A stretch of 64,000 bases of DNA from NCBI RefSeq assembly GCF_009258225.1, contig NZ_CP043617.1:1240001-1304000 (forward strand), written 5' to 3'. How positions within the stretch are numbered: the stretch's first letter is position 1; every line of letters begins with the position of its first letter. Of this stretch, positions 31,808 through 50,853 are shown one piece after another. This stretch comes from Sulfurimonas lithotrophica. GTDB taxonomy: Bacteria; Campylobacterota; Campylobacteria; Campylobacterales; Sulfurimonadaceae. The notes beneath the pieces were generated by a model. The model saw nothing but the letters and a program-made list of their open reading frames with translations, ran no database searches and was not told the DNA's origin. Both the position numbers and the translations under genes were made by a program.

Positions 31808-31884
<77 letters not shown>

Positions 31885-31908
31885 ATTAATTATTAAAATA
31901 ACATATCT

Positions 31909-31983
31909 TGGGGTATCGCCAAGCGGTAAGGCCTCGGTTTTTGGTACCGATATTCGGGGGTTCGAATCCCTCTACCCCATCCA
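31909..31983 (+). tRNA. tRNA-Gln (UUG), integration target
   Basis: A 75-base cloverleaf with a 7-bp acceptor stem (TGGGGTA with TACCCCA), anticodon TTG at 31941-31943 and encoded CCA. The discriminator is T rather than the usual G of glutamine tRNAs. The last 17 bases serve as the left attachment site of the island. The tRNA stays intact because the element carries its own copy of the 3' end. Confidence 0.94.
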
Positions 31984-34034: not shown

Positions 34035-37000
34035 CTATTTTTGATTATACTTCTTAAAATTCTCAGCCTGTTCAAATATCTCTTTAAACACTTCATCTTT
34101 TGTAATTGGTGGATATCCATGTTTAGCAAGCAGCATGATCAGGTCGACTTTTAATTCAGCCTTGATATCGTCCCTTACATTCCAGTCAGTGTATTTGGTT
34201 TTATCATCCACAACTTGCTTGACTTCTTTCGCAAGAGCTATTAATTTATCTTCTGGATAATCAAAGTCATATTTATGAGCTATCTCTTTTAAAATATCGT
34301 AGAACGCTTTTTCTTCGAAGTTTATCCCCATATCTCCAAATGATTCTTTCTCTTTTTTCAGTTCATGATACAGATCAATAATCTCATCAGTGAAGTCCTC
34401 AATGACTCCACTGACAAGTACATCTTCTTCTTTTCTTTCATTGTATTTCTCTACGAGTGCTGTAAACTTTTTACTAAAGTCTATAGCTTTTACTTTATTT
34501 ACCTTTTTAAAATCTTCAAGTGCTTTAGCTAATAGCTGTTGAAGCAGTTTTATCTTTGTATTTGGAAGTTTGATTTTATCTATCTTGTTGATGTAATCTT
34601 CATCAAAAATATCTATCTGTGCTTCATCTTCTGAACCTAGTTTAAAGATCTCTTCAACACCATCACTTTTAAGAGCTTCAGCTATCATCTGAGATACTTT
34701 AGCGTTCATCTGTGCAGTATCAGGTGCATCACCTTTTGTAAGCTTGATAACAATAGAACGAACAGCTAAGTAAAAGTGTATGTAGTCTTTCTCTTTTTGC
34801 GTAAACTCTTCACTTCCACAAGCGATATCATAAGCAGCTTTTAACCTCTTTACGAGGTACATAAATCTAGTTTCTAACTCTTTTGTTAGTTGTACATATT
34901 CACTAGCATTGTTTAAGCACTCTAACTGTTCTGTAGGGCTACCACTAAAATATGGAGAACTATCAAACCTATGAAACAGTTTTGCAAGTAAATCCAGCTG
35001 ATCCCTTACAACCACTATTGAAGCATTGATATCTTCAAAGTTCTTGCTATCAATACTAGAGAACTGTTTAAGAGCTTTATTCATAGCTGTTTTTATACCT
35101 ATATAATCAACTACAAGCCCTTTATTTTTTCCTGCAAACTTTCTATTTACCCTTGAAATAGTTTGGATAAGGTTATGCTCTTGTATAGGCTTATCGATGT
35201 AGATAGTATCTAAGAACGGTACATCAAATCCTGTAAGCCACATATCAACTACTATAGCTATTTTAAAGTTTGATTTTTCATTTTTAAACTGTGTATCAAG
35301 TGTTTTTCTATACTCTTTTGTTCCTAGCATATCCCACAACTCTTTTTCATCATCTTTATTTCGAGTCATAATCATCTTGAGCTTTTCAAGTGGAAGTATC
35401 TCTTTTTTCTCTTTATCACTTAGTTCCACACCATCATCACAAACTCTTTGTTCATTCCACTCTGGTCTTAGTGTCACAAGCTCTTTAAAGAGTGCATAGG
35501 CTATCGGTCTACTGCTTGAGACAAACATAGCTTTACCTTTAAGCGTAGCACCTTCTTCTACTCTTTTTTCATAGTGTTCTACAAAGTCTTTGGCTATAGC
35601 TTTTATTCTATCTGGATCACCAAGAATGGTACTCATATTTGAGATAGCTTTTTTACTATCTTCTATTTGGTATTCACTAGCTCCTGCTTCTGCACACTCA
35701 TCGTAGTACTTTTCAATATCTTGAAGTTTTGAGTTATCGAGTAGAACCTTGGCAGCACGACCTTCATACACAACTCTAACTGTGATCTCATCCCTTACAG
35801 ACTCAGTCATTGTATAGCTGTCTACCACACCACCAAATACATCAAGTGTAGCGTCTATAGGTGTACCTGTAAAACCTACATAAGTAGCATTTGGAAGTGA
35901 GTCATGCAGATACTTTGCAAAACCATAAGTCTTTTTAACTCCCTTGTCAGTCACTTTTACTTTTTGATCTAAGTTTATCTGACTTCTATGTGCTTCATCA
36001 GATATACAGATGATGTTTGTTCTCTCACTAAGTAGTTCTATATCTTCTGTAAACTTATGTATGGTCGTTAGAAACACCCCACCACTCTCACGACCTTTTA
36101 ATCTTTGTCGTAAATCTTCACGACTCTCCACACTAACAATCCCATCATCCCCTACAAAACCTTTTGCATTACCAAATTGTCTACTTAGCTGATCATCCAA
36201 ATCTGTTCTATCTGTGATGAGTATAATTGTAGGACTAGAGAAATGAACACTTTTCATAAGCAGTCTTGTAAGATAAAGCATAGTAAAACTTTTACCGCAC
36301 CCTGTAGCACCAAAATATGTACCACCTTTACCATCGCCATGTGGTTTTTGGTGTTGTTTTATATTTTCATAGAGTTTTCTAGCTGCATAGTACTGAGGAT
36401 AACGACAAACTATCTTTTCCTCTTTTTTAGACTTGTCAGGTATGTAGATAAAATTGTGGATGATGTCTATAAGTCTCTCTTTGTTAAACATCCCTTGGAT
36501 CATAGAGTGCATTGATGCTATACCATCTACATCTTCTTCATTGCCAGTTATCTTTCTCCAAGAGTAAAAGAACTCATAAGGTGCAAAAAATGAACCTGCT
36601 TTATTGTTCACTCCATCACTTATGACACAAAACGCATTGTATTTGAAAAGCTCAGGAATATCTCTTCTGTACCTAGTTGTGAGCTGTACAAAAGCATCAT
36701 GTATAGTAGCTTCTTCTCGTATGGCACTTTTAAACTCAAATACCACCAATGGCATACCGTTTATATACAATATGCCATCAGGTATTCTTTTTTCATAAGC
36801 AACTATCTCAAGCTGATTTACTATCTTAAAAGTGTTCTTGTCTATAGTTTCATAATCTATAAACTGAATATGAATATCTTTTTTACTTGCATCTTCACGT
36901 TTAAAGATAAAACCATCAGAAACTAGCTTCATAATCGATTTATTTGTATCGTATAAGTCACTTGAAGGATAAGACTCTAACTTACGGATGATTTGAGTTA

Positions 37001-37181
37001 TTTCACTCTCAGTTATGTTATCAGATTTATACCTATCAGCAAGATACTTCTGTAAATCATCTTTTAAAAGAACTTCACCCTCATCTCTTTCAATCTCTTT
37101 ACCATGCTGATAACTAATACCTTGCTCTTCAAGTAGTTCTATAAACGCCAGTTCTAGTTTTTCTTCTGTAAATTTACTCAT
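34035..37181 (-). CDS. hsdR: Type I restriction enzyme, R subunit
   Basis: A 1048-residue motor and nuclease subunit. The N-terminal PD-(D/E)XK nuclease has D135 and E149-F-K151. The superfamily 2 helicase has Walker A GATGCGKS (residues 291-298) and the DEAH box at 395-398. Motif VI-like QTISRVNR is present, and a helical C-terminus binds HsdM. It cuts unmodified DNA after translocation when complexed with HsdM and HsdS. It overlaps the fic gene by 8 bp. All key residues look intact. Confidence 0.96.
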   Translation of the reverse strand: MSKFTEEKLELAFIELLEEQGISYQHGKEIERDEGEVLLKDDLQKYLADRYKSDNITESEITQIIRKLESYPSSDLYDTNKSIMKLVSDGFIFKREDASKKDIHIQFIDYETIDKNTFKIVNQLEIVAYEKRIPDGILYINGMPLVVFEFKSAIREEATIHDAFVQLTTRYRRDIPELFKYNAFCVISDGVNNKAGSFFAPYEFFYSWRKITGNEEDVDGIASMHSMIQGMFNKERLIDIIHNFIYIPDKSKKEEKIVCRYPQYYAARKLYENIKQHQKPHGDGKGGTYFGATGCGKSFTMLYLTRLLMKSVHFSSPTIILITDRTDLDDQLSRQFGNAKGFVGDDGIVSVESREDLRQRLKGRESGGVFLTTIHKFTEDIELLSERTNIICISDEAHRSQINLDQKVKVTDKGVKKTYGFAKYLHDSLPNATYVGFTGTPIDATLDVFGGVVDSYTMTESVRDEITVRVVYEGRAAKVLLDNSKLQDIEKYYDECAEAGASEYQIEDSKKAISNMSTILGDPDRIKAIAKDFVEHYEKRVEEGATLKGKAMFVSSSRPIAYALFKELVTLRPEWNEQRVCDDGVELSDKEKKEILPLEKLKMIMTRNKDDEKELWDMLGTKEYRKTLDTQFKNEKSNFKIAIVVDMWLTGFDVPFLDTIYIDKPIQEHNLIQTISRVNRKFAGKNKGLVVDYIGIKTAMNKALKQFSSIDSKNFEDINASIVVVRDQLDLLAKLFHRFDSSPYFSGSPTEQLECLNNASEYVQLTKELETRFMYLVKRLKAAYDIACGSEEFTQKEKDYIHFYLAVRSIVIKLTKGDAPDTAQMNAKVSQMIAEALKSDGVEEIFKLGSEDEAQIDIFDEDYINKIDKIKLPNTKIKLLQQLLAKALEDFKKVNKVKAIDFSKKFTALVEKYNERKEEDVLVSGVIEDFTDEIIDLYHELKKEKESFGDMGINFEEKAFYDILKEIAHKYDFDYPEDKLIALAKEVKQVVDDKTKYTDWNVRDDIKAELKVDLIMLLAKHGYPPITKDEVFKEIFEQAENFKKYNQK

Positions 37182-38142
37182 GAACTATTTCCCAGTGACC
37201 AGATTTTAAACTCCCTACCCTTGTAAGTCTATGCTGCTCTTTTAGTTTTGCTATATCTCTTTTGATAGTTTTATCTGTCACATCCAGTAAACTAGCCAGT
37301 TCTGCTATGGTTATAGCTCTGTTTTCACTAATGATTTCAATAATTTTATCGAGTCTTTTTATTGGGACATTTTTAGGGACACTATTTGGGACATTTACAT
37401 TTTTTATGTTTTGCATAGATTCGAGTATCATCTCAAGCATAAACTCTATAAACGGAGTGCTTTCACCTTGCTCTGTCGAATTTTCTATAGCTTTGTAGTA
37501 CTCTTCTTGATGATCTCTTACTATACTCTCAGTCGGTAAAAGTGAAAAAAGAGGATTGTAACTGTTTAAGATAACGCTCTGCCAAAGTCTACCTATACGA
37601 CCGTTACCATCTGAAAATGGATGAATAAACTCAAACTCATAATGGAATATACAAGATTTTAATAGCATATGCTCATCGCTGTTTTTAAGCCAAGTAAAAA
37701 GGTCTGTCATAAGGTCACTTACCATGCTAGGCTGTGGAGCTATGTGTTCACCAACCTGAACATTTACACTTCTAAAACTTCCAGCAGTTGTTAAGATCTC
37801 ATCCATCAGTATTTTATGTGCGAGTAAAAGGTCATCTAGCTCATCGTAACGGTACGATTCTAACTTGTCATACGCTTTTATAGCCCCTTGTACTTCTGCA
37901 AGTTCTTTTACACTTCCTAAAACCTTTTTACCATCTATGATAGAAGTGATCTTCTCTTCTCCTAAAAAGTTACCCTCTATCTCTAAAGTACCAGCTAATG
38001 TTTTAATGCGGTTCTTTTTTCTTAGCATAGGATTTACTTTTGTAATGCTAGAGAACTGAAGTTTTGTGAGTTCTTCACTTATTTGCGTTGATAGTTTTAG
38101 TATTTTTGAGGTTATTTTGTATGGTGGGGTGTAGTTATTCAT
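37174..38142 (-). CDS. Class II Fic protein with C-terminal winged helix
   Basis: A 322-residue protein. The inhibitory helix is TLEIEGN (T52-x-x-x-E56-G57), matching the S/T-x-x-x-E-G/N rule, so activity is expected to be held off until released. The active motif HPFSDGNGRIGR at residues 174-185 is complete. Fic enzymes transfer AMP (or another nucleotide) to proteins. Residues about 262-322 form a winged-helix DNA-binding domain (ITIAELASLLDVTDKTIKRDI). Its ATG follows directly after the T-run of the terminator-like hairpin, and it overlaps hsdR, so it is translated with that subunit. Confidence 0.9.
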   Translation of the reverse strand: MNNYTPPYKITSKILKLSTQISEELTKLQFSSITKVNPMLRKKNRIKTLAGTLEIEGNFLGEEKITSIIDGKKVLGSVKELAEVQGAIKAYDKLESYRYDELDDLLLAHKILMDEILTTAGSFRSVNVQVGEHIAPQPSMVSDLMTDLFTWLKNSDEHMLLKSCIFHYEFEFIHPFSDGNGRIGRLWQSVILNSYNPLFSLLPTESIVRDHQEEYYKAIENSTEQGESTPFIEFMLEMILESMQNIKNVNVPNSVPKNVPIKRLDKIIEIISENRAITIAELASLLDVTDKTIKRDIAKLKEQHRLTRVGSLKSGHWEIVHE

Positions 38143-38188
38143 AAAAAAAATCCTCTCTCTGGTATATTTTTAAGAGGTGGAAAGGATT
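38143..38188 (-). terminator. Terminator-like hairpin between the DRT3 RNA and fic
   Basis: On the minus strand, AATCCT (38183-38188) and AGGATT (38149-38154) can pair, with inner AGAG/CTCT or CCTCT/AGAGG pairing. A run of eight T follows, ending one base before the fic ATG. The 3' arm AGAGAGGA is also the only ribosome site for fic, so folding would both end transcripts and hide that site. Confidence 0.6.
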
Positions 38189-38316
38189 GTTTATAAACAT
38201 GCAGCCCGAACTCACTGCATTAGAAGTACATACCTTTTGAATCAAAGTATTTACCATATCACTTGTGTGTGAAATTGTTTTGTTCGGAATGACGTGAAAA
38301 AACATTTTATCAAACA
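38143..38316 (-). ncRNA. Candidate DRT type 3 non-coding RNA
   Basis: The 174-bp gap after drt3b has no convincing gene; a 60-codon frame across it lacks any protein-like character. Read on the minus strand it has ordered RNA structure. CCGAAC (38287-38282) is followed by a CACACACA tract (38271-38264), a 7-bp hairpin (38250-38230), and a hairpin ATGCAG/CTGCAT (38220-38199). The loop of that last hairpin contains GTTCGG, complementary to the first element, so a pseudoknot is possible. A T-run hairpin ends it. DRT3 systems are reported to use an AC-repeat template in their RNA; the tract here fits. The exact 5' end is not determined. Confidence 0.7.
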
Positions 38317-40350
38317 TTAGCTGTAAACCTCCTGACTTTTTTTCAATTCAATTTCTTCTGCTAAATTAAAATCTTGCCATTTAACAAACCAATATTTTTG
38401 CTTTAATGAAAATACAACTATTTTATTTTGTGTAGCTGGATCAGTTACATCATTCAAAGATAGAAATCTATTTTTATCTTGAGTATCTACATAAGGGCAA
38501 GTCATCAAGTCCATTAAAAGTAACGTAAGCTCAGTGTTTTTTCTAAGATTATCTTTATTGTAAGATTTAAACTTATTTTCAATACACTCCAAAAGCTTTG
38601 TTTTGATGTTAGCATATCGACTGATATTTTTTATATAGTAAAGTAAACTCACTATTACGAAGTAATTTAACTCTATTCCGTCATCAAAAAAATAACTATC
38701 TAAAAAATTGCTCTCGAGCCTATAGTCTTTACCTATTTCGTTTAATATCAATAGCAGATATAATGTTTCATTTTGTGTATATTCTTTTAATTTATTTTTC
38801 TTCAGTATTTGAAAAGTCTCATCATACATTTTTTTATAAATCAATTCAATTTGATAATTTTTAAATATCCTATTGTGTGCCTTACTGTCTTTGATAAATT
38901 GTATTAGTTTACTAATTAGTGAAACTATTTTAATAGTTGATGTAACTCTAGGTGATACAGAATATATAAAAAATAAAAAGTTCAGTAACTGCATCGTATA
39001 AGCAACAAACATATCAGTATAAAGCAATTGATTTTCGGAGTTTTCAAGTTTGGAAATAATTTTTAAATATCTCTTTTCTATTGTTGCTATTGAATAGTTC
39101 AAAATATCTTTATATTCTATATTTGTCTCTTTAATAATCATTTTAAATTTTGTTATAACATCTTTAGAATTTAAAGAAACACTCCACTGCTTTTCATCTT
39201 CTGTTGCATTGTCTTTTATTACATAACTAAAATTTTCATTAATTAATTCAGTTATTTTTGTTTTTGCTATTGTCAAATCTGTAATAATAGGTTTAACAAA
39301 TTCAATTGTTTTTGTATCGCTCACATATAAGTTATATTCTTTTAACTCATGTTTAAAAGTTTCAGTTACTATATTTTTAACTCGCTCATCATCATAAAAT
39401 ACGAAATAGTCATCGACATATCTAAAAATTTCATAGTGAGTTTTATGTAAACATGATTTTGTTTCTAGGTTGCTTTTTACCTTCTTATCAATACTTTGTA
39501 AAATTAGTTCAGCAAAAATACGAGAGATCTCAGCGCCAATCAAAATACCATTTGTCTCACCATAGTTCATATTTTGCATCAATTTATCAAACTTACCTGC
39601 GAATGTGGCATCTAATTTAGTATTTAAATTATCTTTTACTATTTCTTTGTTTAATAGTGCCCATGCGATAGTATGTGTATAAATACTGTCAAAGCATTTA
39701 TTAATATCAAATTTATAAAGTTTGTCAAATTTCTTTTCACATCTTTGATATTCATAAGACTCAAAAAACCTATGGATATTACTGTACTTTTTATAGGTAA
39801 AAAAACTTTTTAAATGTTCTTCTTCATTATCATGAATCTCAATTTTATTATGAGCCAATTTGGTATTTTTTCGTTTTTTTAGATAGTTGTTCATATATCT
39901 ATTTTTAGCTATTTTAAAAGGTCTTCTAATAGAAAATTCACTTTCATTTGAAAAATATTTTATACTTTCTTTATATGTACTATAGAAATTCACTATCATC
40001 AGTTGATTTAAAGGATGTATCAAAGATAAGTTTCTAAAATCATTTTTTTTATGTGCAATTTTAAAAGTAAATGGAATAGTTCTTTCATGATTTTCAAATG
40101 AAGCTTTATTGTTATCAACTTTGACGTTGAAAAGTAGTTCTAAAACTTCTTTTACATCTGTAACACTGTTATCAAATATAATTTCATTGTTTTTTATTTC
40201 TACTTTATTATTCACCAAAAATCTATAAAAATATCTATTAGAAAATATTGCTGGTGTTTCATAAGGCAATGTATCTGATAAAACAGCTCTTTCTTTTAGA
40301 TAAGTAATTTTTTGTTTTTTTCTAAACTTTCTACTCATAAGTTCTTCCAA
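38317..40350 (-). CDS. drt3b: Antiviral reverse transcriptase Drt3b
   Basis: A 677-residue reverse transcriptase. Motif A is KFDINKCFDSIYTH (213-226), motif B TNGILIGAEISRIFAELIL (266-284) and motif C FRYVDDYFVFY (309-319, catalytic YVDD 311-314). The N-terminus has LPYETPAIFSNRYFYRFL, typical of defence-linked UG RTs. The long C-terminal part is alpha-helical, as in abortive-infection RTs. It overlaps drt3a by 16 bp. The pair with a shorter RT and an AC-rich RNA is the DRT type 3 arrangement (UG3/UG8), an antiphage system. Assignment of a versus b is by size and order. Confidence 0.85.
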   Translation of the reverse strand: MEELMSRKFRKKQKITYLKERAVLSDTLPYETPAIFSNRYFYRFLVNNKVEIKNNEIIFDNSVTDVKEVLELLFNVKVDNNKASFENHERTIPFTFKIAHKKNDFRNLSLIHPLNQLMIVNFYSTYKESIKYFSNESEFSIRRPFKIAKNRYMNNYLKKRKNTKLAHNKIEIHDNEEEHLKSFFTYKKYSNIHRFFESYEYQRCEKKFDKLYKFDINKCFDSIYTHTIAWALLNKEIVKDNLNTKLDATFAGKFDKLMQNMNYGETNGILIGAEISRIFAELILQSIDKKVKSNLETKSCLHKTHYEIFRYVDDYFVFYDDERVKNIVTETFKHELKEYNLYVSDTKTIEFVKPIITDLTIAKTKITELINENFSYVIKDNATEDEKQWSVSLNSKDVITKFKMIIKETNIEYKDILNYSIATIEKRYLKIISKLENSENQLLYTDMFVAYTMQLLNFLFFIYSVSPRVTSTIKIVSLISKLIQFIKDSKAHNRIFKNYQIELIYKKMYDETFQILKKNKLKEYTQNETLYLLLILNEIGKDYRLESNFLDSYFFDDGIELNYFVIVSLLYYIKNISRYANIKTKLLECIENKFKSYNKDNLRKNTELTLLLMDLMTCPYVDTQDKNRFLSLNDVTDPATQNKIVVFSLKQKYWFVKWQDFNLAEEIELKKSQEVYS

Positions 40351-41687
40351 ATACTCAATATTTCTTCTAACTCTTTTTTTGAAAACTTGTAGAAGTTTTT
40401 CTTTTGAAATCCATCAACAAAACTAAAAGTTTTTAGCTTGTTTTTTAGTTTTGTAGTACCATTCAGATTTAAACGGGAGTAAGGTTGTAAGTTTCTTTCA
40501 ACTGCTACACATTTAAAATAATTATCAAGTCTCTTTAGTTTTGAATCCACACTTATTTGTTGATTTGAAAAATATGCACCTATCAAAATATCTTTTTTAA
40601 CACCTAACAGCCGTGTATTACCAGTCAAATATTTTAATCTTTGAATTAATAATCTTCGAGCAGCTTTTTCGTTATATTTACTCGTTCTATTATAATCTTC
40701 AATTGAAATGTTCAACTTTTCTTTATATCTCTGCTCTTTATTACTACTTATATCTATTTTAAGTGGATTGGCGAAAGTAAAGTTATAACCTAAAAAATCA
40801 AAATTGAAATTGTTAGTTTGTGTAAAATCCATAGGTTTTGTTTTTGTAGTATTACGCCTTAAGCCATATTTTGTAATCTTTTCATCTATTAAATTTAAAT
40901 AATCAATACTTTCATGCTTATTATTTGGTGTAAATACAATGATTATATCATCCACATATCTTGCATAATAAGTCACATTACTCAAGTCTCTTATATCATT
41001 ATCAAAATCTCTCATATATAATTCAGCAAGATAAGCACTTATACCTATTCCTCGTGGTATTCCACTATTTTGACCTGTAATAATCTGATACTGTCTTAAT
41101 ATTTCATTGATGATTTTTTTTGACAATGGACTAAGTATATGATTTCTGGATATGACTTTTTTTAATTCATCATGAGGAATAGTTTCATAAAAACTTGCAA
41201 TATCTGTTCGTATAATGTATTTTGGAAATCCGTTATCAAGCATATTTACAACTTGAGACACTATTTCATTCCTATCAGCTTGCTTTACTTTAAAGGAGTG
41301 CTGTATATTTTTTTGAATTTGCTTAAATAAAAAAAATGTTTCTACATTACTTCTATCGACAGTATAAGCTGTTTTTCCCTTGATAGTTTTAGTAAGCATT
41401 GAAATTGAATAGTTTTTTTTATCAATTTTTTCTTCTACTAATGACAAAATTATTTGTAAGTTATCAAACTTTCTCTTTTTTAATCTTTCTTTTCTATGGT
41501 TTGCTCTTTCTCTTTTTTCAACTGTAGAATAAAATCCATCTCTAAATTTTTTGTTAATTTTTTTTATTGAATTTCCATAATGTTTTAGAATATTAAATTC
41601 TGAAAATCTACCATCTAAATAGTCACCTTTTCGGTTTTCATCATAATAAATTTTTGTAAAATTTTCAACATTAAAAGATTGCTTCAT
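40335..41687 (-). CDS. drt3a: Antiviral reverse transcriptase Drt3a
   Basis: A 450-residue reverse transcriptase. Motif A is RTDIASFYETIP (160-171), motif B GIPRGIGISAYLAELYM (209-225) and motif C YARYVDDIIIVF (241-252, YVDD 244-247), followed by FLGYNF of the thumb region. It starts 2 bp after the hsdS stop and overlaps drt3b by 16 bp. In DRT3 this subunit is the RNA-templated enzyme, reported to copy the AC repeat of the ncRNA. There is no maturase domain, protease or intron structure, so it is not a group II intron. Confidence 0.85.
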   Translation of the reverse strand: MKQSFNVENFTKIYYDENRKGDYLDGRFSEFNILKHYGNSIKKINKKFRDGFYSTVEKRERANHRKERLKKRKFDNLQIILSLVEEKIDKKNYSISMLTKTIKGKTAYTVDRSNVETFFLFKQIQKNIQHSFKVKQADRNEIVSQVVNMLDNGFPKYIIRTDIASFYETIPHDELKKVISRNHILSPLSKKIINEILRQYQIITGQNSGIPRGIGISAYLAELYMRDFDNDIRDLSNVTYYARYVDDIIIVFTPNNKHESIDYLNLIDEKITKYGLRRNTTKTKPMDFTQTNNFNFDFLGYNFTFANPLKIDISSNKEQRYKEKLNISIEDYNRTSKYNEKAARRLLIQRLKYLTGNTRLLGVKKDILIGAYFSNQQISVDSKLKRLDNYFKCVAVERNLQPYSRLNLNGTTKLKNKLKTFSFVDGFQKKNFYKFSKKELEEILSIWKNL

Positions 41688-41689
41688 TC

Positions 41690-42904
41690 TTATCCCTCAA
41701 TTATTGCCATTTTGGAAAGTAAAACATCTTTTAATTCATGTAGTTTATGGTTTTCATTTTGTTTAATTAAAATATGCTCAAACAACTTTTCTGATTTCTC
41801 TCCAAATTTATAAATCGTTTTTGAATCTGGATATAAAACTGAAATTTGTTCAAAGTCACGAGTAACTAATGCGCCAAAAACTCCTCCATTAGCATGATTT
41901 TTTAATACATCCAATGTTCTTAGGGTGTGTTGATAAACAAAGAATTGATTTATATCTTTTCCAATAGCCGCATAACAACTTTGATTCATTGCCATATCTG
42001 TTGAAGCCATAGCTATTGCCCCCACAGTTCCTCTTGCTGTTATAAAAACTGTATTTATTGGATAAATTTTTGTACTACTATTGTCAAAACCAAGTTGCGT
42101 TATATTTTTTTCTGTGCTGATACTATAAATTGATTCAGAAACATCTTTTGGAGTGAAAAAAGGTATTTTACCGTCCCAATATTCAATAATTTCAGTACTA
42201 GGAGTTCCACCACCTTTTAAGTCAATCATATTTGTGTAAGGAACAGAACTCCATTCATTAGGTATTTCCATATCCAGTTCTTCTGAGTATTTCATCTTAC
42301 CACCATTTGATTTATATGGCTTACGGTTTTCATTTGGAAATTCAAAATTCATAAACCACTCTTTATAGATACTTTGTGCTGTATCTTCTAGTTTTTGATT
42401 TAGTTGCTCATTTAGTTTGATTCTATCTGTGATAGTATGATATTCTTTAACTATCTCTATTTGTTTGTCTATAGATGGAACATTTATATCTATAGAGCAA
42501 AAGTCTTCCCATGATATACTTCCCCTAACATCAGCACCACTCATAAACCATAGATATCTGTCATTCTCACTTCTTGATAGCCACATCATTAAGTATTCGC
42601 TTAAAAGTTCATTTTCATCTTTTACTTCAAATACATAATACGCAGAAGATATAATAGCCTCATCATGTTCTTGCATTAAAGATATTGGGAGCCTCCCATC
42701 TCTTCCAACACTCATAAATTTGCATCCAAACTGACCTTTCTTAACTACTTTATACTTTGTTAAATCCGCTCCTATTATATTTGCGACAGATGGCATAAAC
42801 TTCTTATCTAAATTTACACCAACTAGAAGATCTATTTTTCCATCAACATTTCTTACATTAACTTGTCGTATATAGTCACCTAACTTTTTATAGTTTGATC
42901 TCAT
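41690..42904 (-). CDS. hsdS: Type I restriction enzyme, specificity subunit
   Basis: A 404-residue protein with two target-recognition domains. The first is about 1-150 (starting SNYKKLGDYI). The second is about 215-370, with the usual IPNEWSSVPYTNM and GGTPST features. Conserved helical spacers (QLNQKLEDTAQSIYKEWF and QNENHKLHELKDVLLSKM) follow each. It defines the bipartite DNA site for methylation and cutting. It overlaps hsdM by 17 bp. No second partial hsdS or inverted copy, which would signal phase shuffling, is visible. Confidence 0.94.
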   Translation of the reverse strand: MRSNYKKLGDYIRQVNVRNVDGKIDLLVGVNLDKKFMPSVANIIGADLTKYKVVKKGQFGCKFMSVGRDGRLPISLMQEHDEAIISSAYYVFEVKDENELLSEYLMMWLSRSENDRYLWFMSGADVRGSISWEDFCSIDINVPSIDKQIEIVKEYHTITDRIKLNEQLNQKLEDTAQSIYKEWFMNFEFPNENRKPYKSNGGKMKYSEELDMEIPNEWSSVPYTNMIDLKGGGTPSTEIIEYWDGKIPFFTPKDVSESIYSISTEKNITQLGFDNSSTKIYPINTVFITARGTVGAIAMASTDMAMNQSCYAAIGKDINQFFVYQHTLRTLDVLKNHANGGVFGALVTRDFEQISVLYPDSKTIYKFGEKSEKLFEHILIKQNENHKLHELKDVLLSKMAIIEG

Positions 42905-44456
42905 AACCCAACTCTTTAAAAACTGTCAATAGTTCTTGTTTTGATTGTTCTTCTTGTTTTAAAAGCTCTGTAAATTCACTTTTTAGATTTGTCATCTTAG
43001 TATCAAAGTCTATGTTCTCATCTCTATTTACAAATTCTATATATTTACTTGGTACTAGAGAATAGTCTTTTTTCTCAACTTCTTCTTTTGAAGCACTGTA
43101 GCAGTATTCAGGTATGTCTTCATAAGCTTTTTTATCACTTTGCCATGTATGATAAGTAGACGATATTTTTTCTATAGTTGTTTGGTCAAATTGAATGTAT
43201 TTTTTCTCAAATGGTATACCTTGCTGTCTCAAATCCATAAAGAGTATTTCATTCGTTCTGTCTCTGTGAATTTTATTTACACCGTTTTGTTCAAACTCTC
43301 TTAGTTTTTTATTGGCATTAAGTATCCAAATAGTTACACTTATTGTAGTCGTATAAAACATATTTTGAGGAAGTATTAAAATAGCCTCTACCAAATCATT
43401 TTCAATAAGCTTTTTTCGTATCTTATACTCTTCGCCACCACCGCTTAACGCACCATTAGCAAGGATAAACCCAGCTACACCATTAACAGAGAGTTTAGAT
43501 ACCATGTTAAGTATCCATCCGTAGTTAGCGTTTGATGTTGGAGGAACATCATATCCTGCCCATCTTGGATCATCTAACAGTTCATTTGCACCTCTCCAGT
43601 CTTTTTGGTTAAATGGAGGATTTGCCATGATAAAATCAGCTTTGAGATCTTTGTGTTGATCTTTTGCAAATGTATCAGCCGGTACATCTCCAAGGTTTGC
43701 AGATATTCCCCTGATAGCTAGGTTCATCTTTGCCAGTTTGTATGTAGTTGCCGTGTACTCTTGCCCGTAGATAGAGATATCTTTTTTGTTTCCTTTATGA
43801 GCTTCTATAAACTTCATAGACTGTACAAACATACCACCTGAACCACAAGCAGGATCATAGATCTTACCTTTGTATGGTTCTATCATATTTGCTATAAGAT
43901 TTACTATAGATTTTGGAGTATAGAATTCCCCTTTACCTTTCCCCTCAGCTATGGCAAATTTACTCAAGAAGTATTCATATACACGACCGACTATATCGTG
44001 TCCTTTGTCTTCTATGGTGTTGATGTTATTGATAGTATCTATAAGAGATGAGAGCTTACTTGCATCAAGTCCAAGTCTTGAGAAGTAGTTATCTGGTAAT
44101 GCACCTTTAAGGCTTGGGTTGTTCTTCTCGATTGTAGAGAGTGCAGTATCAATTTTTAGGGCTATGTCATCTTGTTTGGCATTTTGTTTTATGTAACTCC
44201 AACGTGATTCTTCAGGAAGATAGAACACATTCTCCATAGTGTAAAACTCCACCATATCTACAAATGCTTCTTGCCCTTGTTCTATTAGCTGCTGGCGTCT
44301 CTCCTCAAATGTATCACTTACAAACTTTAAAAAGATAAGTCCAAGTACAATGTGCTTGTATTCACTTGATTCAACTGTACCTCTAAGTTTATTTGCACTA
44401 TCCCATAGTGTCTCTTCCATAGATTTTTGTTTTTTTGCTGCTTTTGCTTTTGCCAT
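42888..44456 (-). CDS. hsdM: Type I restriction enzyme, modification (adenine methylase) subunit
   Basis: A 522-residue N6-adenine methyltransferase. The SAM motif DPACGSGG lies at 201-208 and the catalytic NPPF at 279-282. The N-terminal HsdM helical domain (MEETLWDSANKLRG) is typical. Two HsdM with one HsdS form the methylase that protects host DNA. It is the first gene of the restriction and DRT3 transcript, with an AT-rich promoter upstream. Confidence 0.96.
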   Translation of the reverse strand: MAKAKAAKKQKSMEETLWDSANKLRGTVESSEYKHIVLGLIFLKFVSDTFEERRQQLIEQGQEAFVDMVEFYTMENVFYLPEESRWSYIKQNAKQDDIALKIDTALSTIEKNNPSLKGALPDNYFSRLGLDASKLSSLIDTINNINTIEDKGHDIVGRVYEYFLSKFAIAEGKGKGEFYTPKSIVNLIANMIEPYKGKIYDPACGSGGMFVQSMKFIEAHKGNKKDISIYGQEYTATTYKLAKMNLAIRGISANLGDVPADTFAKDQHKDLKADFIMANPPFNQKDWRGANELLDDPRWAGYDVPPTSNANYGWILNMVSKLSVNGVAGFILANGALSGGGEEYKIRKKLIENDLVEAILILPQNMFYTTTISVTIWILNANKKLREFEQNGVNKIHRDRTNEILFMDLRQQGIPFEKKYIQFDQTTIEKISSTYHTWQSDKKAYEDIPEYCYSASKEEVEKKDYSLVPSKYIEFVNRDENIDFDTKMTNLKSEFTELLKQEEQSKQELLTVFKELGYEIKL

Positions 44457-44563: not shown

Positions 44564-46276
44564 TTAGATACTTAAAACCTTTTGGGTCTGTAGCATAGCA
44601 ATGAAGTCATCGTTATTCTTGGCTTTTAAATCTATATCCATAAAATCTGCCATTTGATAAACAGATGTATTAACATCTAAATTGTTTTCGATTTTATGTT
44701 TCATATCTTCAGCAATTTTTGTAAATTGAAGTTTTTGTTTTGCAAGTATTTCAAGAGATTCTGTTTGAAAGATATCAGTATTTTTTTTGATGTTTTCTAT
44801 ACGAAGTTGAAATATTTCTTTTACTCTAGCAAGTCTTTTTTCATCTTTTACAGAGAATAAGTCTATCTGGTCTAATAACCAAACAACAAGTGTTGTAGCA
44901 AGCCCTGAAACAATAATTGTAGCAACATCACCAATTATAGGTATCTTTTCTAATGCACTTTCTAAATTAAATATCAAAATAGGTACTACAGCAGAAGCAA
45001 TTATTTTTGTAATAGCATCAGCTTTTTGTGCTGAACTCATTTCTTCTGATGGTTTTAGCATAATTTTAAATGCCTCTTTTATAGACATAAAACCTTGTGT
45101 AACAATTTCAATAAACTTTTTAAACATTCCTAAAAATGCTTTTAGTATATTTTCTAATAACATTGGTATAAAATTACCTATTACATCTTTTATAGCATCA
45201 CCTAATGTATTTAGTGCATTTTCTTTTATAAATTTACCAGCTCGCTTTAGTCTTAGAATAAAAGCTTCTATCTTATCATTTGTATCAAAACCATATAAAA
45301 CACCATTTAAAAACATGTCTTTTATCTCAAACCATATTGGTTTTAATATTAAAACTATTGCATCGCCGAAACCTTTTAAACCAACATTTTTTGCCATTAA
45401 TTTTCTAGCTTCTTTATTTTGAGCTTCTGTAGCTTCTTTTTCAAGTTTTAAAGCTTTTTCTTTTTCAGTTTCGGTTAAAGCATCTGGATTTTTTTCAATA
45501 AATTCACTCCATGTCATATCACCTTTTGCTCTATTTAAAGATGAATTTATATAGGTTTCATTTTGTTCCAATCCTATAACTTGTTCTAGGTCATCCCTAT
45601 AAAGGTAAGGGTTATTCTGATATTTTTTTCTTACACTATTAATTGGATTAACATGATCCATATCTGCTGATTGTATACCTTTTTGTTTTGCACCATTAGT
45701 TGTTAAATCAATATTCTCACCAGTTACATCATCAATTACAGTAGCAGTTTTTTTAGTCTTTATTTCGCCTTTTTTATTCTCATAAGTAATTGTTTCATTA
45801 CGTTCAATACCTTTAGATTTTTCAGTTTCAGACCTTGATTTCGTGTCATAATGGTTATTTCTAGTATCTGTACCATAATGACTTTTTTCTGCTTGAGTTA
45901 AAAAAACATCTTCATCAACATCTTTATGTGTAAACTGTTCATAACTAAAGCTATTTACTTCGTTCACAAGTCTTGATGGAGTAACATTTGTTTTTCTAAA
46001 TGATCCATTTAGTTTTGGATGTTTAATTAGTCCATCAGCTATACCCAAAAGCATAGGGTTTACAAGTTCAGTAACAATATTTTGTCCACTTTCAAACTCT
46101 TCATAAATTTTATCCATTATTTCCAAAGATGATTGTTGATCATGTAGTTCAATGTCAATGAGCTTTTTACTCATTTGAAGTGGAGATGTATTGTTTAACT
46201 CTTCCCTTAATTCTTCGAAAGATAGAGTTTTGCCAACCAGTTCCTTTGTTTGTTCATCTAGCTCATTTTTACTCAT
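44564..46276 (-). CDS. Unrecognised protein with HNH-like motif and hydrophobic helices
   Basis: A 570-residue protein. Residues about 200-252 look like a beta-beta-alpha metal (HNH-type) nuclease: D207-H208 (SADMDHVNPI), N244, N248 and K251. Residues about 310-470 are hydrophobic and amphipathic helices (VVPILIFNLESALEKIPIIG, TIIVSGLATTLVVWLLDQI) that could insert in a membrane. The C-terminus is a charged coiled coil. It ends a four-gene operon with spacing of 9-22 bp. I do not recognise the family. The layout suggests a nuclease linked to a membrane-active domain. Confidence 0.6.
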   Translation of the reverse strand: MSKNELDEQTKELVGKTLSFEELREELNNTSPLQMSKKLIDIELHDQQSSLEIMDKIYEEFESGQNIVTELVNPMLLGIADGLIKHPKLNGSFRKTNVTPSRLVNEVNSFSYEQFTHKDVDEDVFLTQAEKSHYGTDTRNNHYDTKSRSETEKSKGIERNETITYENKKGEIKTKKTATVIDDVTGENIDLTTNGAKQKGIQSADMDHVNPINSVRKKYQNNPYLYRDDLEQVIGLEQNETYINSSLNRAKGDMTWSEFIEKNPDALTETEKEKALKLEKEATEAQNKEARKLMAKNVGLKGFGDAIVLILKPIWFEIKDMFLNGVLYGFDTNDKIEAFILRLKRAGKFIKENALNTLGDAIKDVIGNFIPMLLENILKAFLGMFKKFIEIVTQGFMSIKEAFKIMLKPSEEMSSAQKADAITKIIASAVVPILIFNLESALEKIPIIGDVATIIVSGLATTLVVWLLDQIDLFSVKDEKRLARVKEIFQLRIENIKKNTDIFQTESLEILAKQKLQFTKIAEDMKHKIENNLDVNTSVYQMADFMDIDLKAKNNDDFIAMLQTQKVLSI

Positions 46277-46285
46277 ATTATTCCC

Positions 46286-47212
46286 TTATGCAGATAATAG
46301 TTCCAGTTTTTCCATTTTTGACTGAATATTATTTACAGCTTGAATGTCTTCAGTTTGAACTTCACCATTTTCTGTTAAATATCCCATTGTTGACATTTGT
46401 TTAAGAACTATTGAAAGATTAAACAGTGCTCTAAACTCATCTATATGTACTATAGGGATTAGTTTAAAATCTAACTTACCATTTTCAAGAGTTACTCCGT
46501 TTAAAACTTGTTTTTGTGTTTGCGAAGACACACCATATTCAAAGCGGTCAAGCAATTTAGAATAGTTCATAACTAATGTTTCAAAATACATAGCTACATT
46601 TTCAATAGATTCAAGAATAACTTTTATTTTGACAACTTGAGATTTCATTTTTTCAATCTCTTCGTCTATTCTCTGCTCTTCTTCTTGAACTTTGACAAGT
46701 GTCTGTTTAGCTTTTTTTCTTGTGAAAAATCCAAGAGTAAAAATTCCAAAAAATATCTCTGAAGCTTTTAGATTATTAAAATCAATCATATAGAGTTCTT
46801 CTTTGCTTCTAACACCTTCAAGTTTTTTTACTTCAGTAATCGAATCTTCAAAATACTCTAAAAAACTTTTACCTTCAATATTAATATTGTGAAGCTTATT
46901 ACCTAAATCAGTAAAGCGTTTAAAATGTTTATCGTAAATATCTGTTTTATGGTAGTTAATAGTATTGATTCTTTCTTCAAGTTTTGAAGTTATATCTTGC
47001 ATATTCCGTTCATACTCAAACTTGGCTTTATCGTATCTATCTGTAATCTCAGCGAGTAATTCTTCTGCTTCGTTAAAGGTTGTTCTACCTGTTATACCAT
47101 TCCAAGCTTTAGATGTTTTTTCTTTAACATAATCAACTGCTTTACTGGCAACTTCAACTGTTTTTTTTGCAACTGATTTGACACCGTTCCATAGTTTTGC
47201 ACCCAACCCCAT
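46286..47212 (-). CDS. Unrecognised coiled-coil protein
   Basis: A 308-residue protein. The first 40 residues form an amphipathic helix region (KLWNGVKSVAKKTVEVASKA). Long coiled coils span about 48-140 and 175-215, with a short hydrophobic segment (FFGIFTLGFF, near 155-164) between them. It has no enzymatic motif. It sits 9 bp before the HNH-like gene and 22 bp after the TerB-like gene. A structural or membrane-bending partner role is possible but speculative. Confidence 0.55.
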   Translation of the reverse strand: MGLGAKLWNGVKSVAKKTVEVASKAVDYVKEKTSKAWNGITGRTTFNEAEELLAEITDRYDKAKFEYERNMQDITSKLEERINTINYHKTDIYDKHFKRFTDLGNKLHNINIEGKSFLEYFEDSITEVKKLEGVRSKEELYMIDFNNLKASEIFFGIFTLGFFTRKKAKQTLVKVQEEEQRIDEEIEKMKSQVVKIKVILESIENVAMYFETLVMNYSKLLDRFEYGVSSQTQKQVLNGVTLENGKLDFKLIPIVHIDEFRALFNLSIVLKQMSTMGYLTENGEVQTEDIQAVNNIQSKMEKLELLSA

Positions 47213-47234
47213 ATAATTCTCCTTGTATCATTTT

Positions 47235-47636
47235 TTACTTAGAAATCAGTTCATATCCCTCTTGAACTATATCATTCATTGCTTCCACCCATCTATGTAT
47301 TCTTGCTACTTCATATTCTTTAATTCTGAACTCTTCTGCCAGCATATCCACAAATTGCCCTTCAGCTTCACAAACTTCTCCATCTGCTAAAAGTATTCCA
47401 AATAGTTCTATTAGAATTATTTTTTTAACTTTTTTTGTAGAACCTTTGAGTGCAACAATAATCTTGTTAATGTCATCTTGTCTATGTGCTGTGTATTCCA
47501 CTAGTTGACATTCGTACTTATAGCTTGTAAGTATCGCTTCTTCAGATTCTTTATGTTCACCGTTTAATCCCATTGAGTATCTTGCCAGTTCTAAAAAGTC
47601 TTGCTGCTCTTGTTTGTTTAGTAAATCTAAATACAT
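47235..47636 (-). CDS. TerB-like helical protein
   Basis: A 133-residue all-helical protein. The segment LFGILLADGEVCEAEGQFVDMLAEEF carries the pattern L-x-x-ADGEV-x-x-x-E seen in TerB/tellurite-resistance domains, where acidic residues bind metal. TerB domains occur in stress and anti-phage systems near membrane proteins. It belongs to the four-gene operon. The match is by pattern only, so a different helical fold remains possible. Confidence 0.6.
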   Translation of the reverse strand: MYLDLLNKQEQQDFLELARYSMGLNGEHKESEEAILTSYKYECQLVEYTAHRQDDINKIIVALKGSTKKVKKIILIELFGILLADGEVCEAEGQFVDMLAEEFRIKEYEVARIHRWVEAMNDIVQEGYELISK

Positions 47637-47650
47637 TAATATCCCTTATC

Positions 47651-48277
47651 TTAATATTTTGTTGTTATTTCATCGATAATATTGTTGTTATCATCGTATA
47701 TATACTCAGTTTTGGAACTAATCTCACCAGCTTCGTCATATTGATATGAAAAAACTAAACTACCTGCTTTGTTAAAGTCTTCACCTTTGAGTAATGAACC
47801 ATCTTTTGAGTAGTACATTTTGTGTTTTATACAGTTATCTGCAAAAGTTTCAGTAAAGTTCTTAATTCCACCTTCGTAATATATATTTGTAGTTTCATTT
47901 GTCTTTTTATCAACAAGTTTAAGTACTTTACATTCACCAACTTCTTGAATAAAATGATCGTCTTCATATATGCCGTTTTTATATTTTGCTAATTCTGTGT
48001 GGAAATTTATTATATTATCTAGCCTAATATGTTGTAAGGATTTTTGTGTTGCTACAAAACTGGAATCAATATTTGATTGTAAGTTTTCTACCTTTTTAGT
48101 CATTGATGTATTGTTTTCATCGAGTTCTTTAAACTGTGAAGACATAAATGTTTGAAGTTTATTCAATTCGTCTATAACTAGCTTATTTGAGTCATTTATT
48201 TTTTTGTAAGCTATTATTATAGTAAGTAAAATAGCTATAGATGACACTATAGTAATTACCATAAGGGGTGTTATCAT
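47651..48277 (-). CDS. Membrane-anchored coiled-coil protein with YwqK/MORN-like repeats
   Basis: A 208-residue protein with one N-terminal membrane helix (about 4-25) and a coiled coil (30-85). At the C-terminus are beta-strand repeats with YYSKDGSLLKGEDFNKAGSL, YQYDEAGEIS and YIYDDNNNII. These resemble MORN/YwqK antitoxin-type repeats. It is the first gene of the four-gene leftward operon, with a 14-bp gap to the TerB-like gene. Its function is unknown. Confidence 0.55.
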   Translation of the reverse strand: MITPLMVITIVSSIAILLTIIIAYKKINDSNKLVIDELNKLQTFMSSQFKELDENNTSMTKKVENLQSNIDSSFVATQKSLQHIRLDNIINFHTELAKYKNGIYEDDHFIQEVGECKVLKLVDKKTNETTNIYYEGGIKNFTETFADNCIKHKMYYSKDGSLLKGEDFNKAGSLVFSYQYDEAGEISSKTEYIYDDNNNIIDEITTKY

Positions 48278-49473: not shown

Positions 49474-50853
49474 CTAATCTGTTGTTAGTAAAACTTTTCC
49501 ACTTGGAACAATTCTTTTTGCACCAAAGCCATTTTTATAACTGAAACTTCCAGAACCTTTTGCAATACCTAATTTGGTAGTGTTCTCTTTCCATGCCCCA
49601 TCAAACTCCAAGTGTATAGTTTTACCTGCTGTGCTTCTTGCAAGACCTTCATCCTTACTAAGCCTTTGAGATAATTTAGCCGTAAATATGTAGCAGAGGT
49701 CTTCATTTTCATAAGGATCAGCTTTGCCAAACCAGTCTCCCTGTATAGTCTTACAACCATTTGATTTTAAGATAGATAAGTTCTTTAAAAACTTCTCTTT
49801 AGACTTAAAAAACAAGATTTCTCCATAAATCTGATAGTTTTTAGACATTTTTTCGATTAAAGGTGTAGGAGTTATACCCATCTCTTTGAGCATTTTTATA
49901 TGTCCGATGTATGACATATTTTTGTAAGGTGAATATTCTTTAGTATCATTTATTCCCATATCTAACAGTTGTTCAACTATATTCGGATCCGTCAAACCAA
50001 TAGTTGTCCATTTTCTTATATGTTCAGGTTTTTTAATTCCTATCTTGTTCCATTCTGAGATTTTTTTTGGATTTTTCAGTCCTGATGAAAGCCACATTTT
50101 TATATCTTTATACTCAGTTATACCCGCACTTCTCCATTGCTGAAATGAATATGAATCTTTTATACCTATATCAATCCATTTTTGAGCCTCCTGAGGCGTT
50201 TTTACTCCCATGTCCAACCAATTTTTCTTGATATTTTCAGGACTATCTATATTAATCCACCCTTGAACTTCACTAGGTGAACTAAGTCCTATCCTTTGCC
50301 ATCTTTCCACATTATCAGAATATAATACCCCTATTTCTTTCCATTGTTTTATTTCATTTGGAGTTTTAACGTTTACATCCAGCCAATATTGTGCGTCTGA
50401 TGGTTGTTCAATTCCGGCATTAATCCAAGCTTTTACGTCTTCAGCAGGTATATTTGCTTTTTTCCAGTCCTTAATATAATATGTATCTATCCCTAAAGCA
50501 AGCCATTTTTTGATTTCCTCTAAAGATGTAATATTTGCTTTAGCAAAATCAACAGAGTGTTCAGCTAGATCAACTCCTGCATCTTTATATCTTTGAACAT
50601 CTTCAGGTGTTTTTGCACCTATATTAATCCACATATCGAGATAATTCTTTTCAGTATATCCACCTTTTAGCCAGAGTTCGGCTTCCTGAGGTGTTTGAAC
50701 ACCAAGTTTTTTCCATTTATCTATATTATATTTTTTAACTACACCTATTTTGTTCCATTCTGCCAGTTCTTCTTTTGAATATTCTTTAGCATACAGCTGA
50801 TGATTTAAAATAAATACTAAAGATATCACGCTGATCAGTTTTTTGCTTCTCAC
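49474..50853 (-). CDS. Secreted protein with about twenty 14-residue tandem repeats
   Basis: A 459-residue protein with a signal peptide (residues 1-22, ending LYA). From about residue 29 to 310 it consists of near-continuous 14-residue repeats with the pattern x-W-x-x-x-G-I/V-x-x-P-x-E/D-A/V/I-x (for example KWIDIGIKDSYSFQ, MWLSSGLKNPKKIS). These would stack as a helical solenoid in the periplasm. The last 130 residues are a separate domain with cysteines in NGCKTI and EDLCYIF. No known family is recognised. It is read leftward, towards the 227-residue gene and away from the WYL regulator. Confidence 0.65.
   Translation of the reverse strand: MRSKKLISVISLVFILNHQLYAKEYSKEELAEWNKIGVVKKYNIDKWKKLGVQTPQEAELWLKGGYTEKNYLDMWINIGAKTPEDVQRYKDAGVDLAEHSVDFAKANITSLEEIKKWLALGIDTYYIKDWKKANIPAEDVKAWINAGIEQPSDAQYWLDVNVKTPNEIKQWKEIGVLYSDNVERWQRIGLSSPSEVQGWINIDSPENIKKNWLDMGVKTPQEAQKWIDIGIKDSYSFQQWRSAGITEYKDIKMWLSSGLKNPKKISEWNKIGIKKPEHIRKWTTIGLTDPNIVEQLLDMGINDTKEYSPYKNMSYIGHIKMLKEMGITPTPLIEKMSKNYQIYGEILFFKSKEKFLKNLSILKSNGCKTIQGDWFGKADPYENEDLCYIFTAKLSQRLSKDEGLARSTAGKTIHLEFDGAWKENTTKLGIAKGSGSFSYKNGFGAKRIVPSGKVLLTTD

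Follow-up and report, generated by a model that had tools for sequence, protein, structure and literature searches.

DRT3 (UG3+UG8) of Escherichia coli (PMC13174585; reviewed in PMC13314766; PDB 9z6y, 9z6z, and 26cz) consists of two reverse transcriptases (RTs), Drt3a and Drt3b, and requires a noncoding RNA (ncRNA) encoded after drt3b, in which an ACACAC loop is the template for poly(dTdG). In Drt3b, E22 serves as the dA gate and R241 as the dC gate, alongside R71, D182, the YVDD motif, and the priming residue Y666 (PMC13174585). RecBCD holds E. coli DRT3 in check, and Gam, a phage inhibitor of RecBCD, triggers it. DRT3 itself is already known, as are defense genes between hsdS and hsdR (PMC12255303, PMC11411939). 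DarTG2 occupies this interval in the RRDM island of enteropathogenic E. coli, and its authors suggest that the site is a recombination hotspot (PMC12255303); TgvAB, a two-gene module in the VPI-2 type I operon of Vibrio cholerae, and RloF of Campylobacter jejuni are also nested in hsd operons (PMC11411939).

The window (the whole 64-kb stretch of DNA that we analyzed) very likely holds an antiphage DRT3 system with all three parts (drt3a, drt3b, and a downstream ncRNA) in the cargo slot of a mobile type I restriction-modification (R-M) operon, where it would act as it does in E. coli. Its likeness to E. coli DRT3 extends from the order of the parts, with an ACACAC-bearing RNA last, to the E/R/R residues for templating, the YVDD motif, and the C-terminal tyrosine used for priming. 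Unlike the E. coli system, the window copy is embedded in an hsd operon and followed by fic, and its RTs are well diverged (about 35 to 40% identity to E. coli Drt3b copies). The nested position resembles that of DarTG2, TgvAB, and RloF; however, the DarTG2 locus carries a toxin-antitoxin cargo with the regulator RptR and no RTs (PMC12255303), and TgvAB is a GmrSD-like type IV restriction system with no RT system (PMC11411939). Among open-licence papers, we found no report of DRT3 in the hsdS-hsdR slot. This locus places one of the strangest DNA-making immune systems, apparently with all of its parts, in Campylobacterota and links it with a type I operon in whose slot nearly every relative examined has a different defense system. 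The breadth of cargo within one R-M lineage is more interesting than the DRT3 instance.

The hsd operon and its cargo

Gene order on the minus strand is hsdM, hsdS, drt3a, drt3b, a 174-nt gap, fic, and hsdR, in agreement with an earlier description that put the RT pair inside a type I operon, after hsdS and before fic-hsdR. The genes are as follows.

42888..44456, minus strand: hsdM, type I methyltransferase subunit (Pfam N6_Mtase and HsdM_N)
41690..42904, minus strand: hsdS, specificity subunit (Pfam Methylase_S), its tail containing a likely ribosome-binding site for drt3a
40335..41687, minus strand: drt3a, 450-aa class 2 UG3 RT with YVDD at residues 244 to 247 (NCBIfam NF041747, PADLOC, PDB 9z6y_A)
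38317..40338, minus strand: drt3b, 673-aa (from ATG) class 1 UG8 RT with YVDD at residues 307 to 310 (NCBIfam NF041748, PADLOC, PDB 26cz/9z6y)
37174..38142, minus strand: fic, Fic-domain protein with an HPFSDGNGR motif and a C-terminal HTH (Pfam Fic, 2e-23; HTH_DeoR)
34035..37181, minus strand: hsdR, type I restriction subunit (TIGR00348, 494 bits, over cut-off)

As read from the genes, hsdM, hsdS, and hsdR are grouped and intact, with full-length Pfam/TIGR matches. The preliminary description gave two RTs of 450 and 677 residues, both with YVDD, a 2-bp gap to hsdS, and a 16-bp overlap between them. The uninterrupted frames, both YVDD motifs, and the gap (hsdS ends at 41690 and drt3a starts at 41687) stand as described; the 677 residues and the 16-bp overlap hold from an alternative TTG start (40350..38317, minus strand), whereas the ATG at 40338 gives 673 residues and a 4-bp ATGA overlap with drt3a.

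Among 135 same-genus genomes, hsdM was found at E ≤ 1e-200 in eight, the window included, and the other copies were 86 to 90% identical to the window hsdM. With G150 left out of the cargo comparison, its operon being cut by a contig end, seven operons remained (window included). Their hsdR genes are about 87 to 88% identical, and they have seven different gene contents between hsdS and hsdR.

Window: DRT3
G073 (L037): SIR2-like and Schlafen
G064 (L038): Hachiman HamA/HamB
G039 (L047): PDC-M01A/B (PtuA-like ATPase and partner) and a 685-aa protein
G149 (L062): 684-aa protein, 270-aa protein, and Schlafen protein
G087 (L063): Lamassu LmuA/B/C and two unknowns
G186 (L064): PDC-S05 and a 283-aa protein

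The fic gene directly precedes hsdR in five of these seven operons. In all, operons from several Campylobacterota families with 80 to 89% identical HsdR carry other systems in the hsdS-hsdR interval, and HsdR relatives in other families add the following.

G479 (L094): Kiwa and PDC-S42
G389 (L096): SIR2-HerA; hsdM broken, no recognized hsdS
G444 (L097): PDC-S06; hsdM 69% identical, gene at the hsdS position only putatively hsdS
G440 (L098): Lamassu; hsdR frame interrupted

A further HsdR relative at 73% (G379) is without this hsdM-hsdS arrangement, and G430 is truncated by a contig end. None of the operons examined, which sample part of the phylum, had an empty slot. The preliminary description proposed surveying hsdS-fic intervals in Campylobacterota for the RT cassette; in the operons examined the slot recurs with other systems in it, and DRT3 was found in the window operon only. 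A special pairing of hsd with DRT3 is unsupported; sister operons carry other defense systems in that slot. The slot offers a direct route to new defense genes, several of its cargo proteins being without a family match. Proteins of 685/684, 283, 348, and 426 aa, with no PADLOC or Pfam family, are candidates. G064 shows a second insertion site, with a PDC-S02 gene between hsdM and hsdS (L038:2593-3666).

The segment that sister operons do not share has sharp edges.

38143..41689, minus strand: cargo segment from the hsdS stop to the fic ATG (nucleotide homology stops and resumes at its edges; drt3 genes at 24 to 26% GC)

Same-genus homology to the window covers hsdM together with the 5′ half of hsdS and is then lost in the second specificity region; in several sisters it returns for the last 40 to 100 nt of hsdS (about 41735-41690) and stops again. 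Homology picks up again at the start of fic (38143-38131), or of hsdR (37181/37175) in operons that lack fic. A GAGGG in the hsdS tail is a likely ribosome-binding site, usable by the next cargo gene. Given the unrelated cargo in sister operons and the homology edges at the hsdS end and the fic/hsdR start, DRT3 is best read as a passenger in a defense slot of the type I operon. From these breakpoints, cargo was probably exchanged by recombination anchored in the conserved parts of hsdS and the fic/hsdR starts. The 5′ end of hsdR recurs as stray copies within the slot, upstream of fic in G039 (L047:7616-7641) and upstream of the Schlafen gene in G149 (L062:10084-10115); these copies look like scars of earlier insertion at the hsdR start.

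Transcription and possible coupling to restriction

From hsdM to hsdR, genes overlap or sit 2 bp apart, except for the 174-nt drt3b-fic gap. This spacing makes one transcript from hsdM through drt3b plausible, so that DRT3 would share transcription with hsdM-hsdS, and it fits the earlier, likewise plausible suggestion that hsdM to hsdR form a single transcript. The gap is the one place where cotranscription could fail. No significant terminator was called within it (a weak hairpin with U8 before fic, z −0.8, was no better than shuffles and was rejected as an intrinsic terminator), and promoter-like matches were no more frequent than in shuffles. A weak hairpin at 38146-38183 (minus strand) has the likely fic ribosome-binding site in its 3′ arm; a similar one, at L003:10136-10161, makes it common to the window and L003, the two loci with fic after DRT3, and its folding is no better than that of shuffles.

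Tight spacing raises the possibility that DRT3 is functionally coupled to the restriction operon as a single unit, in which it backs up restriction and is set off by phages that block either HsdR or the exonuclease (AddAB/RecBCD type) responsible for destroying restricted DNA. Such guarding of restriction has a precedent in PrrC, which is found in hsd loci. The restraint of E. coli DRT3 by RecBCD and its triggering by Gam would fit this reading, as would the AddAB-like genes of the host. In contrast to E. coli, where RecBCD is the brake, the window host carries AddAB-like genes, with no RecB scoring over the cut-off, so AddAB would have to take the RecBCD role; by inference, an AddAB-type exonuclease may restrain DRT3 here. 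DRT3 also lies beside type I genes elsewhere: as the last part of an unrelated hsdRSM operon in L002 and within about 3 kb of type I genes in L011 and L075. However, the slot carries many unrelated systems in sister operons, and close DRT3 relatives occur without this operon. The two closest, L002 and L003 (80% Drt3b identity), are located outside this operon type, L003 beside a transposase-like open reading frame (ORF), with fic and without hsd. Moreover, nested TgvAB works without HsdR activity (PMC11411939). We therefore regard a coupled unit as unlikely, compared with a DRT3 carried as a passenger.

A broader version is similarly unlikely: the hsdS-hsdR interval may be a dedicated exchange slot in which unrelated systems plug into hsd expression as restriction backups and respond to phages able to evade or inactivate the R-M/AddAB pathway, DRT3 doing so through lost exonuclease control of its duplex DNA. 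The slot allows testing of whether nested systems cooperate with restriction, and an AddAB-bearing host allows testing of whether the RecBCD brake on DRT3 generalizes.

Components of the DRT3 system

Both RTs exceed the cut-offs of curated NCBIfam equivalog models about twofold (Drt3a against NF041747, 399 bits, cut-off 200; Drt3b against NF041748, 727 bits, cut-off 350) and have the corresponding PADLOC best matches (E = 1e-112 and 1e-195), which bears out their preliminary identification, from motifs and known pairing, as Drt3a/Drt3b (UG3/UG8). Top PDB matches of both are solved DRT3 proteins: 9z6y_A for Drt3a (E, 2.6e-32) and 26cz and 9z6y for Drt3b, the 9z6y match spanning residues 16 to 671 and so the full length. 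Catalytic motifs are present in both. By alignment, E22, R71, D182, R241, YVDD, and Y666 of E. coli Drt3b correspond to E27, R102, D211, R273, residues 307 to 310, and Y672, so the predicted templating and priming residues (E27, R102, R273, and Y672) are conserved in the window protein.

The preliminary description overlooked the third component, although the ncRNA is a defining part of DRT3. A candidate lies in the drt3b-fic gap.

38186..38316, minus strand: candidate DRT3 ncRNA, ends approximate (position after drt3b, ACACAC motif, structure common to two close relatives, no coding constraint)
38287-38282, minus strand: CCGAAC upstream of the template, predicted to form a pseudoknot with the loop GTTCGG (one compensatory change among three relatives)
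38264..38271, minus strand: template motif CACACACA (ACACAC after drt3b in 17 of 17 loci)
38226..38254, minus strand: middle hairpin, after the template (folding and three-sequence alignment)
38199..38220, minus strand: 3′ hairpin ATGCAG/CTGCAT with loop GTTCGG (hairpin z −2.5; one compensatory change among three relatives)

The sequence CACACACAAG at 38271-38262 (minus strand) is the sole copy in the 64-kb window, where 0.09 would be expected. ACACAC occurs within 230 nt after the drt3b end in all 17 DRT3 loci examined (shuffle frequency per locus, 0.7 to 15%), which come from E. coli (two copies near-identical), Enterobacter, Vibrio, alphaproteobacteria, Bacteroides, a Flavobacteriaceae MAG, and other Campylobacterota, the window included. 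The two compensatory changes behind the hairpin and pseudoknot, drawn from three sequences, are suggestive only; the covariation count in this alignment of the window and its two close relatives was reached by 56 of 500 shuffles. A covariance model built from the three did not recover distant DRT3 RNAs significantly, its best match outside the training set being L004, in the correct place with an E value of 2.2. No Rfam family matched the gap, even at E ≤ 1. A small protein encoded over the gap was considered and rejected: a 60-codon ORF from the drt3b stop is open in the window, L002, and L003, but codon positions 1/2/3 take 7/10/6 of the window-L003 substitutions in its first 120 nt, so it is not under coding constraint.

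With the ncRNA motif present and the Drt3b templating and priming residues conserved, the locus is apparently a complete, intact DRT3, and enzymatic activity and an antiphage effect would be expected of it. By analogy with E. coli DRT3, Drt3a would make poly(dTdG) by copying the ACACAC template, and Drt3b, with Y672 as its priming residue, would make poly(dCdA) without a nucleic acid template; the two strands would anneal, and build-up of the duplex during infection would halt the cell.

Decay of DRT3 to an inactive passenger of the operon might account for the low GC content of the drt3 genes (24 to 26%, versus 34 to 35% for hsdM/hsdR) and for the finding of DRT3 only once in searches of 135 same-genus genomes (by hsdM) and 200 family genomes (by Drt3b). 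Yet both frames are open at full length, all key residues are kept, and the template motif is intact, making decay quite improbable. As for recent acquisition, viral contigs yielded no relatives and phage records only partial RT matches (under 30 to 40% identity), and hence there is no sign of recent phage carriage. That the RTs are remnants of a mobile, group II intron-like retroelement inserted in the operon, as their RVT_1 domains and weak group II maturase similarity might hint, is refuted by the model scores (group II, 81 and 43 bits, where the cut-off is 300 bits; the Drt3a/Drt3b models pass), by the lack of any intron RNA match in Rfam at the locus, and by the conserved three-part locus, the same RT pair and ACACAC RNA being fixed in other DRT3 loci. 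Neither refuting outcome named in the preliminary description was observed: the RTs do not match group II intron or retron families best, no Rfam match points to a cognate intron or msr-msd RNA, and the pair recurs in other DRT3 loci.

Flanks of the operon

Nucleotide matches to sister operons stop at the outer edges of the operon (about 44540 and 34024). Shared chromosomal flanks were limited to one 0.5-kb match outside the operon, with none at the edges, and the ending of matches at both edges indicates that the operon occupies different chromosomal sites. About 2 kb beyond the hsdR end, tRNA-Met and tRNA-Gln genes (31808-31983, plus strand) mark a possible island integration site. Adjoining hsdM is a minus-strand gene run (44564-48277; 570, 308, 133, and 208 aa) that includes a TerB-like protein and is possibly another defense system; its 570-aa protein is weakly like the PADLOC candidate PDC-M40B. 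Farther on, a 459-aa protein at 49474-50853 (minus strand), with no Pfam family over cut-off, consists mostly of repeated W..GI..P.D/E...W-type units.
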